Shown here piece after piece: positions 35,761 through 42,390 of a stretch of 64,000 nt of DNA. Below the pieces are notes generated by a model. That model saw only the letters and a list, made by a program, of their open reading frames with translations, made no database searches and had not been told where the DNA came from. The number at the start of each line of letters is the position of its first letter. The first letter of the stretch is position 1. Position numbers and translations under genes: made by a program. The stretch is taken from positions 1,922,001 through 1,986,000 of the forward strand of contig NC_017098.1 in the NCBI RefSeq assembly GCF_000242595.2, written 5' to 3'. The stretch is from Spirochaeta africana DSM 8902 (lineage in GTDB: Bacteria; Spirochaetota; Spirochaetia; DSM-27196; DSM-8902).

Positions 35761-36261
35761 TCAGCTGCCCTGAACCTCTTCAACCAGGGCGTCGAATATG
35801 GAGAGCATATCCTCGGTAGTCTTCCGCAATCGCGCCGCGATGATTCTGGCAATCGCCCTGGTGACCGGCAGCCCGATCTCCGGGTGTGCGTTACCCAAAG
35901 CGAGGAAATCCTTTTTCTCGATTACCAGGAACTCTGCATCGCTGGTGGTAACAACCGTCGCAGAACGCCGGTCGTCATCGATCAAAGCAAGCTCCCCGAA
36001 GAATACATTATCGCCAGCGTCAAGCTGAACCACGGTATATTCATCACCCGCTCGGGTATGCTTGTGTATTTCTACCGACCCGGCATTCATGATGTACAGC
36101 GAGGTCCCGACCTCACCCTCTTTGATTACCCGTTTGCCGGCAGCGGTACGGTTGATGGAACAAATGCGTGCGATTGACTCCAGAGCAGCCGGGTTATCCT
36201 TGAGCTCTCCAAACAAGGTGATGCTTTGCAATCGCTGAATTGTCGACTCACGGGATTTCAT
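35761..36261 (-). CDS. Stand-alone cyclic-nucleotide-binding domain protein
   Basis: Cytosolic protein of 166 residues consisting of one CNBD. The phosphate-binding cassette FFGELALIDDDRRSATV keeps the Glu and Arg that contact the cyclic phosphate and ribose, so binding of cAMP or cGMP is plausible. No HTH follows, unlike in CRP; the tail is helical (PVTRAIARIIAARLRKTTED). Its ATG overlaps the stop of the K+ channel gene (ATGA), making it the last gene of a four-gene operon. A natural reading is that it acts as a separate ligand-sensing subunit for that channel; this is inference. Confidence 0.92.
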   Translation of the reverse strand: MKSRESTIQRLQSITLFGELKDNPAALESIARICSINRTAAGKRVIKEGEVGTSLYIMNAGSVEIHKHTRAGDEYTVVQLDAGDNVFFGELALIDDDRRSATVVTTSDAEFLVIEKKDFLALGNAHPEIGLPVTRAIARIIAARLRKTTEDMLSIFDALVEEVQGS

Positions 36262-37463
36262 GCACCCTCCCTGACAGGGTTTGAACGCTCCAGGACGATC
36301 GCTGCAGAATAACGAGGTACCACGGTATCATCCGCCGGCAGCAGCATCGGTTTGTTGGCCTCGAGCCCTTTGACCCCCTGAATGTTGGCCACCAGTCTTG
36401 AGATATCGGAGGTCTTCTGAGCTTCCTTGAGCGCCTCGATCTTCATGCGGGTTTGGGTACCGGTGTTCTGCAGCAGCCCCAGAATCATGATGCTCTTGTT
36501 GTCTGCAGAGGCCGCCGCAGTGATATCGGCACACAGCCGGGCATAGCTTTGACCGATCAAACGCTCCGGCACCGGGAGTGTTTTCAGGACTGCATCCGAC
36601 TGGCGTTGACTGATCAGATCATACACGATGTGACTCATCCCGTTGGTCGACGAGGTTGAGGCAATCAGTTGGCGGGAAAAATCCTGACTGAACACGATTT
36701 CATCGCACTGGGCATGACGAAGATAACTCTCGAATTTTCTGTCGAGGATTTCTGCAATTACATAGGTTTCCCGGGACATTGCCTTGCAGGTGAGAACGGT
36801 CATAACTGTTTTTGAGTCGACCTCCGACACCGCACTGCTTTCAAGTGTGTCGGCCAGTACCATCACCTTGGCAGAGCCGCCAATATTGGCCCGCTGCAGC
36901 ACCGGCTCTGCAAAATAATCGCCTTTTACGAACTTGAGCCCGTTCAGCCGGGAGGACTCCTTGAGCTGATCCACCAGCTGTGGATCAACATTGCTGACCA
37001 GTACCAGTTGATCACTGTGCAAACCGGGATTTGCTCGCAGAATTCCATTCAGAATATCCTGCATGTCATGCTTCCAACCGCATATTACCAGGTGATTGCG
37101 CAATCTTTGATAATCCAATAGCCCCCTCCTCGCGCGGGAATTCTGCTCTACCAGCCATGAGGTTATCCCTGCAGACAATAACCCGGCGCCAGCTATCCCG
37201 AAGAACACCACCAGCACTGCCAGTATTCTGCCACCCGTGGTTATTGGCACCATGTCGCCATAGCCAGTGGTAGAGAATGTAATGATCATCCACCAGAAAC
37301 CATCCACCAGATGGTAAAAATCGCTGTTATAGCGATACTCGAACAGATAGACCGCAACAGCGGCGGCACAGAAAAACGCCACCAGCAAAAGACTTACCCG
37401 GATAATTCGACTGTCCCGATAGCGATATACCATTTTCCTTAGCATCCGGCGCAATCCTTCCAT
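36258..37463 (-). CDS. Two-helix potassium channel with RCK (TrkA-N) domain
   Basis: Inner-membrane K+ channel of 401 residues. Helices at about 24-41 and 79-104 flank the pore with selectivity filter TTGYGD at residues 65-70. A cytosolic RCK domain follows from about 118 (HLVICGWKHDMQDILNGIL, VLVSNVDPQLVDQL, KVMVLADTLESSAVSEVDSK). The nucleotide loop is GWKHD rather than GxGxxG, so the ligand may differ from NAD. It starts four bases after the hybrid kinase stop with GGGGG upstream, and its stop overlaps the cNMP-binding gene. Confidence 0.94.
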   Translation of the reverse strand: MEGLRRMLRKMVYRYRDSRIIRVSLLLVAFFCAAAVAVYLFEYRYNSDFYHLVDGFWWMIITFSTTGYGDMVPITTGGRILAVLVVFFGIAGAGLLSAGITSWLVEQNSRARRGLLDYQRLRNHLVICGWKHDMQDILNGILRANPGLHSDQLVLVSNVDPQLVDQLKESSRLNGLKFVKGDYFAEPVLQRANIGGSAKVMVLADTLESSAVSEVDSKTVMTVLTCKAMSRETYVIAEILDRKFESYLRHAQCDEIVFSQDFSRQLIASTSSTNGMSHIVYDLISQRQSDAVLKTLPVPERLIGQSYARLCADITAAASADNKSIMILGLLQNTGTQTRMKIEALKEAQKTSDISRLVANIQGVKGLEANKPMLLPADDTVVPRYSAAIVLERSNPVREGA

Positions 37464-37467
37464 CCAG

Positions 37468-39846
37468 TTAATCCCCCGGACTGCCAGGCACCGCGGAGGC
37501 CTCGCGCGAGAAGCGTTCGAACTCCCGCTGCATCAGCTTGAGATGCTGCAATGCGGCACCGCGCTGCTCATCCATGCAGGCCTGCTCTACCAGTCCGGCA
37601 GCAGATGCCAGCGGTGCAGCCTCAAGGTGGGCCGCGCCGCCCTTGATGCCGTGTGCAAGTATGCGAGCAGTATCATAGTCGCCGCCACGCACAGCGTCCT
37701 CTATCTCCTGCAGCTGACGACCGCCGCGTTCCAGAAAGGACCCCAGCACTCGCTGCAGCACATCCTGTTTACCAAGAAAGGTTTCCAGCGCATCATGATA
37801 CCGGAAAGCATCGGTACTGTCCGGTGTATCATGTGCATCTCCGGGCTCACCAACTTGCCCAACCTGCCCCGCCTGTTCCGCCATATAGCGTCGCAGCAGC
37901 GGATACACATCCCGGGATTTGAACGGCTTGGGCAGGTAGTCGTTCATTCCTGCCTGACGGCATTTTTCCCGTTCACCCTGCAGGGCATTGGCGGTGACCC
38001 CGACAATCGGCACATCGGGGTCTGCGGCACGAATCCGTCGAGCCGCATTATAGCCATTCATTACCGGCATCTGCACATCCATAAACACCATTGCAAACTG
38101 CCGCGGCCTGAACATCTCCACCGCATCACGCCCGTTACTGGCGGTAACAACCTGCAGACCGCAGTGCTCGAGAATGGTGCGAAACAGCTCCTGGTTAACC
38201 TCGTGGTCCTCGGCCAGCAACACAACCCCCTGCAGTCGGGGCGGCAGGGACGGATCGACCGCTTCCAGCTCGGCGGCGGTTTCCTCGCTGGCAAGCGCTG
38301 GCAGATCGAGATCCTGCAGCAGCACCGCTTCGAGTTTGCTGTACAGGGTACGAATCCGGATCGGCTTGGTTACGTAGTCATCGAACCATCCCAGTCGCTT
38401 CATCTTGGCATCAGCCCCCAGCTGACCGTTGGGCACCATCAGAATCAAGCGGGTGGCATTGATACGGGTATCGGCGTTGATATCCCCGGCCACCTGCCAG
38501 CCATCCATCCCCGCCAGCAGCAAATCGATCAGTGCAATATCGAACGGCCGTTTTTGACCCGCAGCGGTTTGCAGCGCCTGGATTGCGCTGTGGCCATCGT
38601 CGACCCATTGTGCATCAAGTCCCCATTCCTCGAGCCGTGCAACCACGGCCCTCCCCGCCGTCCGGTCGTTGTCGACAACCAGGGCACGCTTCCCTTCCAG
38701 TTCACTGAACGGGACGCTCGCAGGTGAGTCGCCAGCAACAACCCCGGCAAACGGCACCTCGATCCAGAATACCGATCCATCACCGCTGCGACTGCGCACC
38801 CCGATGCGCCCCTTCATCATGCGGACCAGGCTTTTACTGATCGACAAACCCAGGCCGGTACCACCGAACTTCCGGGTGGTGGAGCTGTCGATCTGGCGAA
38901 ACGCCTGAAACAGATGCGGAAGCTGCTTCTCGGGTATACCGATACCGGTATCCTCGACCTCTATTCGCACCACATCCCTGCGCTCACCAGCGCCGGCCGG
39001 TCGAGCCCGCAGGACGATCATCCCCGACGAGGTGAACTTGAGCGCGTTACTCAAAAAATTTACCACGATCTGTCGCAGCCGCAGGGGATCCCCGCTAACC
39101 ACAATCGGGATACGGCTATCTATATCTATGATCAGCTCCAGTCCCTTCTTGTGTGCCTCAAGGCTGATCATATCAGCGGCATCCTCCAGTACGGTATAGA
39201 GATCGAACTCGATAATCTCCAGACTCAGTTTACCTGCCTCGATCTTGGAAAGGTCAAGAACATCATTTACCAGCGACAGCAGGACATCGGCCGAGAACTG
39301 AATCTGCCCGGCGTACTCGCGTTGCTCCACATCAAGGCTGGTATCCAGGAGCAATTCGGACATCCCCATGATGGTATGGATCGGGGTACGAATCTCGTGG
39401 CTCACATTGGCCAGGAAAGCTGACTTTGTCTTGGTTGCCCGCAGTGCGTCCTCACGTTCGCGAATAAGACGCTGCTCCCCGTGGCGCTTGGTGGTGATGT
39501 CGTCGATAACCGCAAAAACAAACGGGCTGTGATCCTCGGCAGCAATATAGCTGATATCGATCTGCCACCAGCCGTGACTGCTGCCGGTGCGGTACTCGGC
39601 CTCATACTGGAAATGGGGGGTGGCGGTACCGTTGATAACCTCCGTAAAGCGGCTGCAGAAATGCTCTCTGGTGCTTTGGCCGAGGTATTCAAAGAATACC
39701 GACTGCATAATCTCCGACTGGGGACGCTGCAGCATCGTCAAGGCGCTGCGGTTGCAGTACACAATCCGCCCCGAGGTATCCAGGATCATCATGCCGTGCG
39801 GGAGATGTTCGAAAATCAGCTGAAACTGCCGACCAAAGCTGCTCAT
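37468..39846 (-). CDS. Hybrid sensor kinase: PAS, HisKA, HATPase, two receivers, HPt
   Basis: Soluble phosphorelay kinase of about 792 residues without membrane segments. PAS domain 1-120, phosphoacceptor H150 in FLANVSHEIRTPIHTIMG, ATPase domain to about 375 (DTGIGIPE, GTGLGLSI), a first receiver around 390-515 (ALIDLLLAGMDG), a second around 545-665 (LAEDHEVNQELF, FMDVQMPVMNG) and a C-terminal HPt domain with His in LAHGIKGGAAHLE. The relay His-Asp-His can thus run within one chain. ATG at 39844-39846 is chosen, with GAGG overlapping the stop of the upstream double-receiver gene. Four bases separate it from the K+ channel gene. Confidence 0.94.
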   Translation of the reverse strand: MSSFGRQFQLIFEHLPHGMMILDTSGRIVYCNRSALTMLQRPQSEIMQSVFFEYLGQSTREHFCSRFTEVINGTATPHFQYEAEYRTGSSHGWWQIDISYIAAEDHSPFVFAVIDDITTKRHGEQRLIREREDALRATKTKSAFLANVSHEIRTPIHTIMGMSELLLDTSLDVEQREYAGQIQFSADVLLSLVNDVLDLSKIEAGKLSLEIIEFDLYTVLEDAADMISLEAHKKGLELIIDIDSRIPIVVSGDPLRLRQIVVNFLSNALKFTSSGMIVLRARPAGAGERRDVVRIEVEDTGIGIPEKQLPHLFQAFRQIDSSTTRKFGGTGLGLSISKSLVRMMKGRIGVRSRSGDGSVFWIEVPFAGVVAGDSPASVPFSELEGKRALVVDNDRTAGRAVVARLEEWGLDAQWVDDGHSAIQALQTAAGQKRPFDIALIDLLLAGMDGWQVAGDINADTRINATRLILMVPNGQLGADAKMKRLGWFDDYVTKPIRIRTLYSKLEAVLLQDLDLPALASEETAAELEAVDPSLPPRLQGVVLLAEDHEVNQELFRTILEHCGLQVVTASNGRDAVEMFRPRQFAMVFMDVQMPVMNGYNAARRIRAADPDVPIVGVTANALQGEREKCRQAGMNDYLPKPFKSRDVYPLLRRYMAEQAGQVGQVGEPGDAHDTPDSTDAFRYHDALETFLGKQDVLQRVLGSFLERGGRQLQEIEDAVRGGDYDTARILAHGIKGGAAHLEAAPLASAAGLVEQACMDEQRGAALQHLKLMQREFERFSREASAVPGSPGD

Positions 39847-39853
39847 GAAAACC

Positions 39854-41092
39854 TCATGAAAAATCGATATGCAGCACCTCGACAGCCTTGGCACGCAGCT
39901 GCTGGGGCTTCAGAGGCTTGATGAGGTAACTCTTTACCCCGTTTTGCAGGGCCGTAACCACGGCATCCTTGCGAGACACCGCCGAAAACACGATAATTGG
40001 CGGCAACTCGCTGGCCTGAAACCTGCTATGCAGGTTCTTGAGAACCCGGAACCCGTCCATCTCCGGCATCATGAGATCAAGAAATACCAGATCAAAATCG
40101 GTGACAGTGCTGTGTTCAATAAACTGGCGTCCATTGGCAAAGACATTTACCCGGGATCCGACCTCCTCAAAGGTAGTTTTGGTCAGTTCCTGGATCACCG
40201 GATCATCATCCACCACCGCGATAGAGGCATCCTTAAGAATGTCCTCGTTGATGGTCTGACCGGCCTTCTCGGTAGAGAAGCGCATATTGATGGACCCATC
40301 ACCCTTTACACCACGGCTTTTCTGCAGAAAGGATTCACCATCGGTCTGTTTGCTTTGCAATAGCGGCATGGCCTCTGCCAGGTTGCCAGCGGTTTTAATC
40401 TCCTGGAAATCGGGTTTTTCTCGCAGCATTTTGACTACAAACGGGGCCTGAGTGAGCATTACCATATTGCGAGGCTTGGCCCCTGCGGCCTCCATTACCG
40501 TCTCTATCAGGGTTCTGAGCTTGATAGAGTCGGCGGAGGTAATATCCACGCCGCTCAGCATGATCAACACCCGCGGGCTGGTGAGCCGATACAGTTCGAT
40601 CAGCTCACCGATCTTGAACTGCATCAGATCAATCTTGTCGACATTCAGCCCCAGCGCGACCTCAAGAAACAGCACCCCCTCGTTCACGTGCGCCTCGATA
40701 ACCGATGGGGTATCGTCGACCATGATTGAGAGTTTGAGAAGTCCGCCGACAGCAGTTATAAACTCATCGAGCTTGATGGGTTTAAAGAAAAACTTCTTTA
40801 CCCCGTAGCTGCCTACCTTTACCACATCATCGCGGGCAATCTTGGCGGAGACCATAATTACCGGGGTCTGCGCGGTGTTGGGATCGTCCATTTTTGCTTT
40901 CAACACCTCATCCGCACTCAATCTGCTCAGATAGAAATCCATGATGATCAGATCCGGGTGTTCTGAACGGATTTTCGAGATCGCATCCAGCCCATTGATG
41001 GCCTGAATCACCTGGATATCGAACCGCTCGAGTTTTTGGGTTACAAAGTTGCGGAATGGTTTGGATTGGTCAATCAAAAGTACTTTTTTCAT
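39854..41092 (-). CDS. Double response regulator with central STAS-like region
   Basis: Protein of 412 residues with receivers at both ends. The N-terminal one (1-120) has phospho-acceptor D52 and K104; the acidic pocket is reduced to D8 followed by Gln. The C-terminal one (288-410) is canonical, with VVDDDP, D339 in FLDLMMPEMDG and K392. Between them, 125-245 reads like an anti-sigma-antagonist (STAS) type alpha/beta domain (SPRVLIMLSGVDITSADSIK), a tentative call. There is no DNA-binding or enzymatic output. It is first in the operon with the hybrid kinase, K+ channel and cNMP-binding genes and could receive phosphate from the HPt domain. Confidence 0.88.
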   Translation of the reverse strand: MKKVLLIDQSKPFRNFVTQKLERFDIQVIQAINGLDAISKIRSEHPDLIIMDFYLSRLSADEVLKAKMDDPNTAQTPVIMVSAKIARDDVVKVGSYGVKKFFFKPIKLDEFITAVGGLLKLSIMVDDTPSVIEAHVNEGVLFLEVALGLNVDKIDLMQFKIGELIELYRLTSPRVLIMLSGVDITSADSIKLRTLIETVMEAAGAKPRNMVMLTQAPFVVKMLREKPDFQEIKTAGNLAEAMPLLQSKQTDGESFLQKSRGVKGDGSINMRFSTEKAGQTINEDILKDASIAVVDDDPVIQELTKTTFEEVGSRVNVFANGRQFIEHSTVTDFDLVFLDLMMPEMDGFRVLKNLHSRFQASELPPIIVFSAVSRKDAVVTALQNGVKSYLIKPLKPQQLRAKAVEVLHIDFS

Positions 41093-41129
41093 ATCAAGAA
41101 CGCCCTATTGGCCCCATTATTATGTGTAC

Positions 41130-41159
41130 TTGTTCGCGCTTCGGATTTCAAGCTAATAT
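41130..41159 (+). promoter_or_regulatory. Promoter of the outer-membrane barrel gene
   Basis: TTGTTC (41130-41135), 18-base spacer, TAATAT (41154-41159), ending 7 bases before the ATG at 41167. No Shine-Dalgarno. Confidence 0.55.
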
Positions 41160-41166
41160 GCAAACT

Positions 41167-42390
41167 ATGTCATATTTTTCGTGCTGGAAATATCCCGTCG
41201 TGGTGATGTGTCTGCTGCTGTTCCTCCTGTCCGGCGCGACCGGGCTGCAGGCGGCCGAAGAGCAATCTGTCGGGCAGGCAACCGGGCAGGAGGTTGAGCA
41301 GCAGGATGCCGAACAGGCGGCCAAGAACGACGACACCCCGGATCCACAGCTCCCCCCGCCTTTCGATTATACACTGGACCCCCGCACCTACGGGCTCGAT
41401 GTCGATCTGTACTTCGGGTTCCCCGCGCAGATTACCGGCAGCTGGACACAGCTGTATGCCCGTCTCGGCGCCGGCTGGCAGCGGGAGGGATACCATCGTT
41501 TTTCGGATGGCTCCCTGTTTATAACCGATGACCTCGAAACAGCGCAAACGGCCAACCATCGACGGCTTGAAACCGGGGGCAGAATCGGGATTTTCCAGGG
41601 CATTGGCTGGAACGAGCAGTACCAGGCCCCGCTGTTTTCTGCGTTTGCGCTGATCGGTACAAGCTACGATCGCCATCTGCAGCAGTCCGACTACTCCCCC
41701 TTGATTTTTGCCACCAATTACCCCGACAAAGCTGAAAGCCTGACAACCATGCTGCTGACAGGTGTGGTGTATGACACTGTTGTTCGCCAGGATCGGTCAT
41801 TGACCGGGGATTATCATGAGATATCTGTAGAGTACGGCCCGGCCTGGCTGGGCAACCGGATACTTGGCCGTGCCGAATTCCTGCGACTGCACGCCCGCTC
41901 GGTTCTGCACCGCCCGTTGCTGACCGAGGGGCTGTACCTGGTAAACGGCAGTTATCTGGATCTGCTGTGGGGCGGCTGGCAGGCGGATACAATGGTACCC
42001 ACCAATCAGCGTGCCAGCATTGGCGGTCTGCAGCAGCGCTCCGGACTCGGCGGAACAATTCGCGGGTTCGGTGCGGGCCGCTTCGATGCCGACATCAAGG
42101 CCGCCAACGCCATGGACATGCGCTACCAGTTTCCCCGGCTTTCCCCCCTGCATACCGACATCGGACTGATCGCGTACTGGGACCTGGGATACTATCGTCG
42201 GCTGCGGGATGCACCACCGGATGCAGAGCATACCGCCGGCTGGGTAAGCTCCAACGGGTTTGGCCTGTCGGCTACCCTGAACCGCTCCTGGACCTTTGTG
42301 ATATATACCCATTTCCCCTGGTTTGGCCCCACCGCCTACGAGGACCAGGGAATGGTACCGTTGGCTCTGGACTTCGGTTTTCACCAATAA
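41167..42390 (+). CDS. Predicted outer-membrane beta-barrel protein, Omp85-barrel-like
   Basis: Exported protein of 407 residues. The signal peptide (about 1-29, hydrophobic VVVMCLLLFLLSGATG) is followed by a Glu/Gln-rich linker and then alternating hydrophobic strands with many Tyr, Trp and Gly. GGTIRGFGAGRFDADIKAAN followed by MDMRYQFP resembles the [VI]RG[YF] loop and following strand of Omp85/BamA barrels. The chain ends in LALDFGFHQ, an aromatic-rich last strand. No POTRA domains fit in the short N-terminus. Start chosen from promoter spacing. Its role is unknown; assembly factor, porin or surface protein are all possible. Confidence 0.72.
   Translation: MSYFSCWKYPVVVMCLLLFLLSGATGLQAAEEQSVGQATGQEVEQQDAEQAAKNDDTPDPQLPPPFDYTLDPRTYGLDVDLYFGFPAQITGSWTQLYARLGAGWQREGYHRFSDGSLFITDDLETAQTANHRRLETGGRIGIFQGIGWNEQYQAPLFSAFALIGTSYDRHLQQSDYSPLIFATNYPDKAESLTTMLLTGVVYDTVVRQDRSLTGDYHEISVEYGPAWLGNRILGRAEFLRLHARSVLHRPLLTEGLYLVNGSYLDLLWGGWQADTMVPTNQRASIGGLQQRSGLGGTIRGFGAGRFDADIKAANAMDMRYQFPRLSPLHTDIGLIAYWDLGYYRRLRDAPPDAEHTAGWVSSNGFGLSATLNRSWTFVIYTHFPWFGPTAYEDQGMVPLALDFGFHQ

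Follow-up and report, generated by a model that had tools for sequence, protein, structure and literature searches.

MthK, a Ca2+-gated K+ channel with a pore built from two transmembrane helices (2TM) and an RCK domain, binds Ca2+ through D184, E210 and E212, and its internal start methionine, M107, gives rise to extra free RCK subunits, a feature that 2TM-RCK channels need not all have. We know of no partner with a cyclic-nucleotide-binding domain (CNBD) for MthK, nor for the RCK proteins Slo1/BK and CASTOR. SthK, which comes from a spirochaete, and MloK1 are prokaryotic cyclic-nucleotide-gated (CNG) channels (PMC6093708, PMC4308110), in which the CNBD is fused via a C-linker to a six-helix (6TM) pore. 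Soluble proteins that act on RCK/KTN-regulated K+ transport are exemplified by KefF, an ancillary protein of KefC, and by PtsN, which acts on YcgO (PMC2920069, PMC11808508). Channels of the RCK and CNG types are already known, as are soluble proteins acting on RCK-regulated K+ transport; in the open-licence full-text literature, we found no report of a CNBD/RCK-channel pair or of a CNBD acting in trans on an RCK channel, which is weak evidence of novelty.

We analysed a stretch of 64,000 nucleotides (the window) from the genome of Spirochaeta africana, a single contig of 3,285,855 bases (3.29 Mb). Along the minus strand, four genes follow each other with spacings of 7 bases between regulator and kinase and 4 bases between kinase and channel, and with a 4-base overlap between channel and CNBD gene. 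Their features are as follows.

39854..41092, minus strand: first gene, REC–STAS-like–REC protein of 412 aa (two Pfam Response_reg matches; AF2 model; REC folds in a PDB comparison)
37468..39846, minus strand: hybrid histidine kinase with PAS, HisKA, HATPase_c, two receivers and HPt, start ATG at 39846 (Pfam; junction reading)
36258..37463, minus strand: two-helix K+ channel with RCK, 401 aa, MthK-like fold (Pfam; AF2 model; structural match to MthK)
37254..37271, minus strand: selectivity filter TTGYGD (sequence and family alignment, G67 invariant)
36354..36467, minus strand: two-helix insertion in the RCK C-lobe, residues ~333–370, motif EALKEAQKTSDISRLVANIQGVK, where the CNBD is proposed to dock (model helices and comparison)
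35761..36261, minus strand: predicted stand-alone cyclic-nucleotide-binding protein, 166 aa (Pfam cNMP_binding, E 5e-19)
35953..36003, minus strand: phosphate-binding cassette FFGELALIDDDRRSATV with Glu90 and Arg99 (Glu/Arg conservation in paired CNBDs)
35773..35826, minus strand: C-terminal helix of the CNBD protein, class A tail, motif DMLSIFDALVEEV, proposed to contact the channel insertion (class matching; missing from non-adjacent CNBDs)

The Pfam matches comprised two Response_reg domains in the double-receiver protein, PAS, HisKA, HATPase_c, Response_reg and HPt in this order in the kinase, whose first receiver also gave a weak CRE1-type match, and Ion_trans_2, Slo-like_RCK and TrkA_N in the channel. 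The gene order, domain make-up and spacings reported in the initial annotation hold by sequence and Pfam, the STAS-like middle domain by eye only. Its claim of a free CNBD with an intact phosphate-binding cassette was borne out by Pfam and by the presence of the Glu and Arg residues, and the two relay proteins indeed carry no transcription output domain recognizable by Pfam.

In the double-receiver protein, receivers at residues 1–121 and ~289–412 flank a middle domain (residues ~131–246), which in the AF2 model (pLDDT 80.5) is arranged as β-β-α-β-α-β-α-β-α, matching the STAS order by eye. A Pfam STAS match was not found in this protein, and in a fold comparison with the PDB the STAS assignment was not confirmed, because the receivers filled the match list.

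The channel comprises two membrane helices with a GYGD K+ filter, followed by the RCK N-lobe and an RCK C-lobe (Pfam, alignment and model). The best structural match of its AF2 model (pLDDT 83.3) was MthK (Z 18.6, 290 aligned residues, rmsd 6.3, model range 18–395), with which it shares the 2TM pore, the GYGD filter and a single RCK per chain. In a profile search, the closest RCK sequences in solved structures were those of Slo1/BK and CASTOR, which are much longer chains, BK having two RCK domains. MthK, however, lacks the two-helix insertion in the RCK C-lobe, represented in our model by helices 337–349 and 354–365 between C-lobe strands, and the sequence match to MthK ends before this element; at the positions aligned to the E212 ligand and the internal start methionine of MthK, most members have a hydrophobic residue and Arg or Lys, respectively. 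The CNBD is of the same type as in the K+ channels SthK and MloK1, with an intact cassette (Gly-Glu ... Arg), but here it is a separate gene product accompanying a 2TM pore under RCK gate control. With KefC/KefF and YcgO/PtsN the locus would share regulation of a K+ efflux protein in trans by a separate soluble protein; those systems, however, are transporters with an oxidoreductase-like or a phosphotransferase protein as partner, whereas here a channel is accompanied by a cyclic-nucleotide-binding protein.

We traced the channel through the phylum, then through a set of species genomes from Bacteria and Archaea and finally through two further groups reached from the matches. The non-redundant set contained 133 channels (<90% identity to each other), 124 of which are followed immediately, on the same strand, by a stand-alone CNBD gene, at a median distance of 19 bases when measured to the HMM start. 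These channels come from Spirochaetota, Desulfobacterota, Bdellovibrionota and Fibrobacterota, their records being named Spirochaetes, Deltaproteobacteria, Chitinivibrionales/Fibrobacteres and Bdellovibrio. Where paired channels are less than 45% identical (the 9 others were left out of this comparison), homology extends to the CNBD in 99% of locus comparisons, but to the upstream neighbour in 18 of 5900 (0.3%) and to the downstream one in 5 of 5543 (0.1%). The pairing of the channel with a stand-alone CNBD is conserved to great depth, while the other neighbours change. No natural channel-CNBD fusion was seen among the 124 pairs, which consist of separate ORFs throughout. On sequence grounds, this pairing suggests a type of channel under cyclic-nucleotide control that has yet to be described.

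The two-helix C-lobe insertion of ~35 residues is present in 124/124 CNBD-paired channels and in 0/9 unpaired ones, in a set drawn partly from a genome-collection scan that was seeded by the insertion motif and so favours insertion-bearing channels, with no selection for the CNBD. Correspondingly, at least 59 residues follow the GLL strand of the C-lobe in all 124 paired channels and at most 42 in all nine unpaired ones; one of the short unpaired channels can be aligned with MthK over its full length. As eight of the unpaired channels form one group in the tree and the ninth represents a separate loss in a Treponema tandem, the association of insertion and pairing rests on two changes in the tree, not on 133 observations. 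This Treponema channel, besides having lost the insertion, lacks a CNBD of its own.

The channel insertions fall into two sequence classes, A (EALREAQKTPDISKLV) and B (DDILSxDxSAIDxFIKRKF), and two kinds of CNBD C-terminal helix occur, A (TLFxALVxEI) and B (KLTTALSIALS). Insertion class and tail class agreed in 121/121 pairs without a mismatch (90/90 of A-type, 31/31 of B-type), three CNBD partners that were cut off or masked being unreadable and left out, and the patterns having been loosened after the unmatched tails were read and before this final count. Since the two classes go back to about one deep split, these counts cannot be treated as independent, and the agreement supports an interface without proving it. 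CNBDs of the same order that do not adjoin a channel had neither tail in 19 of 20 control loci; the twentieth has tail B and adjoins a channel gene that is interrupted by a frameshift and had been overlooked by the protein search. At L263 (2511-3715), a class B channel gene in a single-contig genome is broken by a frameshift, with an intact CNBD gene downstream.

We propose, with a probability of roughly two in three, that the channel and CNBD genes encode one device, an RCK-gated K+ channel regulated by cAMP or cGMP via a dedicated partner in trans. The K+ channel would be a 2TM tetramer, with the separate cyclic-nucleotide-binding subunit controlling its cytoplasmic RCK ring. A class III cyclase would raise the level of cAMP or cGMP, the small CNBD protein would bind the nucleotide through its intact cassette, and its C-helix and C-terminal tail would move upon binding. 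The tail would then act on the two-helix insertion of the RCK C-lobe, and the insertion, via the gating ring, would change pore opening. From the observed pairing, cassette, insertion, tail and matching classes, we infer a physical contact and direct binding and gating, with either cAMP or cGMP as the ligand and an effect in either direction.

The cassette Glu and Arg are kept in about 121–122 of 123 readable paired CNBDs. The Arg is followed by Ser (in 105) or Thr (in 15), which leaves both cAMP and cGMP as candidates. The S. africana genome encodes 11 class III cyclase domains. In 0.98 Mb of sequence, cyclases near the pair turned up twice, as weak or single cases, so that there is neither an enrichment of class III cyclases nor a genomic link. 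A HAMP-class III cyclase gene (L011, 3813-5342) lies ~1.3 kb past the CNBD end of one channel-CNBD pair.

The competing explanation that fares best gives the CNBD a role in the structure or assembly of the gating ring, as one of its subunits; the nucleotide site would then govern stability instead of acute gating, and the channel would respond mainly to Ca2+ or another RCK ligand. The position of MthK E210 is indeed a Glu (E238) in 120/124 paired channels and the nearby D205 is kept in 121/124, and the counterpart of M107 is Arg or Lys in most members, so that the ring may need another partner. The position of MthK E212, however, is not acidic and is hydrophobic in most members, and the near-universal retention of the cassette speaks for a role of ligand binding. 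We consider this explanation unlikely.

The initial annotation had proposed that a His-Asp relay and a cyclic nucleotide are jointly coupled to the K+ channel through separate partners. While the channel with its separate, intact CNBD not only stood but proved more widespread than proposed, a general coupling to the relay did not. When each of the four genes was sought in 46 genomes of the order, the double-receiver regulator was found in 42 and the channel in 12. In the 19 readable regulator loci compared, mostly from genomes lacking the channel, the hybrid kinase directly follows the regulator, and a phosphoglucomutase-like gene usually lies on the regulator's far side. At three loci (L113, L117, L118), an aminotransferase gene follows the kinase after 27–40 bases, with no channel or CNBD gene between. 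Regulator and kinase form a conserved unit of their own, with or without the channel. Close CNBD orthologues were found in exactly the ten channel-bearing genomes among the first 41 of the order, and in one family of the order the channel/CNBD pair (L011, L012) lies apart from the regulator/kinase pair (L121, L122). Among 121 non-redundant pair loci, relay homologues, full or partial, precede the channel at only five loci and in the window. The relay genes are thus a separate unit, linked to the channel/CNBD pair only in a few relatives, and we rejected a conserved four-gene relay module as a general arrangement.

Direct control of the channel by the kinase/HPt/double-receiver relay, acting alongside the CNBD, nevertheless has points in its favour. 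The complete order, with channel and CNBD behind the kinase and tight spacing, is kept in relatives of the window, namely in five genomes of the same order (L013, L014, L015, L017, L018) and three further spirochaete records (L129, L130, L132), and the relay proteins carry no output domain of their own for transcription. The order, however, joins units that also exist apart, and since the flanks are syntenic, a shared position by descent suffices to explain it; taken with the near absence of relay genes from other channel/CNBD loci, this makes direct relay control improbable, more so than a structural role of the CNBD. In the lineage of the window, the relay genes and the channel/CNBD pair are probably co-transcribed, judging from their spacing. 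Relay input to the channel may exist here besides co-expression, outside the core mechanism; where co-transcribed, the relay unit may provide a further level of control, over expression or over activity, and elsewhere it is not required.

Least probable of all is mere co-expression without contact, the CNBD serving, for example, as a cyclic-nucleotide buffer or as a regulator of another target: the gene pairing is compatible with it and CNBD proteins are common, with several per genome, but the two genes stay paired across deeply diverged loci whose other neighbours all differ, and the CNBD tail varies in step with the channel insertion.

Extending the preferred reading, cyclic-nucleotide gating in trans, we lean slightly towards the pairs representing a widespread, apparently undescribed K+ channel family, in which the CNBD would dock on the RCK C-lobe insertion and which would span at least four phyla, including a 6TM form in Treponema. 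If so, RCK-type K+ channels of spirochaetes, deltaproteobacteria and Bdellovibrio relatives would be under cyclic-nucleotide control by an unrecognised route, cAMP or cGMP would be linked to membrane potential or K+ content, and the many class III cyclases of spirochaetes would gain a target. The system would also be small and separable, such that cyclic-nucleotide sensing could be added or removed as a protein, unlike in CNG channels with their covalently attached domain.

Several variants of the pair were observed. The 6TM, voltage-sensor-like form, which occurs in Treponema, is a 527-aa channel with an N-terminal Ion_trans region before the RCK (L204, 3491-5071; L206; L207), and a CNBD gene still follows. 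Some Treponema channels are still accompanied by the CNBD although their selectivity filter is degenerate, which weighs against the preferred reading, as do the missing natural fusions and the missing enrichment of cyclases near the pair. Tandem channel-CNBD-channel-CNBD loci were found in Treponema (L079, L186, L187, L191, L193, L201, L202), and in the four checked (L079, L186, L187, L191) the first channel has GVVRF in place of the GYGD filter; at L079, the CNBD accompanying this channel keeps its cassette. From its sequence, the filter-less first channel is perhaps a non-conducting or heteromeric subunit. A Treponema channel-channel-CNBD operon (L087) has a first channel lacking both the C-lobe insertion and the GYGD filter.

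At five class B pairs (L209, 4846-6069; L210; L218; L219; L220), the upstream gene overlaps the channel gene by 1–4 bases. At L209 and L218, this overlapping gene encodes a DUF1577-PilZ protein, a possible c-di-GMP input, and is preceded by a WD40-like gene; the DUF1577-PilZ gene, overlapping the channel gene by 4 bases, exemplifies a different signalling gene ahead of the pair in other lineages. In the window, a divergent gene (41056-42390) adjoins the double-receiver gene; its product has no Pfam match and resembles an outer-membrane protein by eye, and a homologue of this gene also lies beside the regulator at seven other loci (L017, L018, L113, L115, L117, L125, L126).
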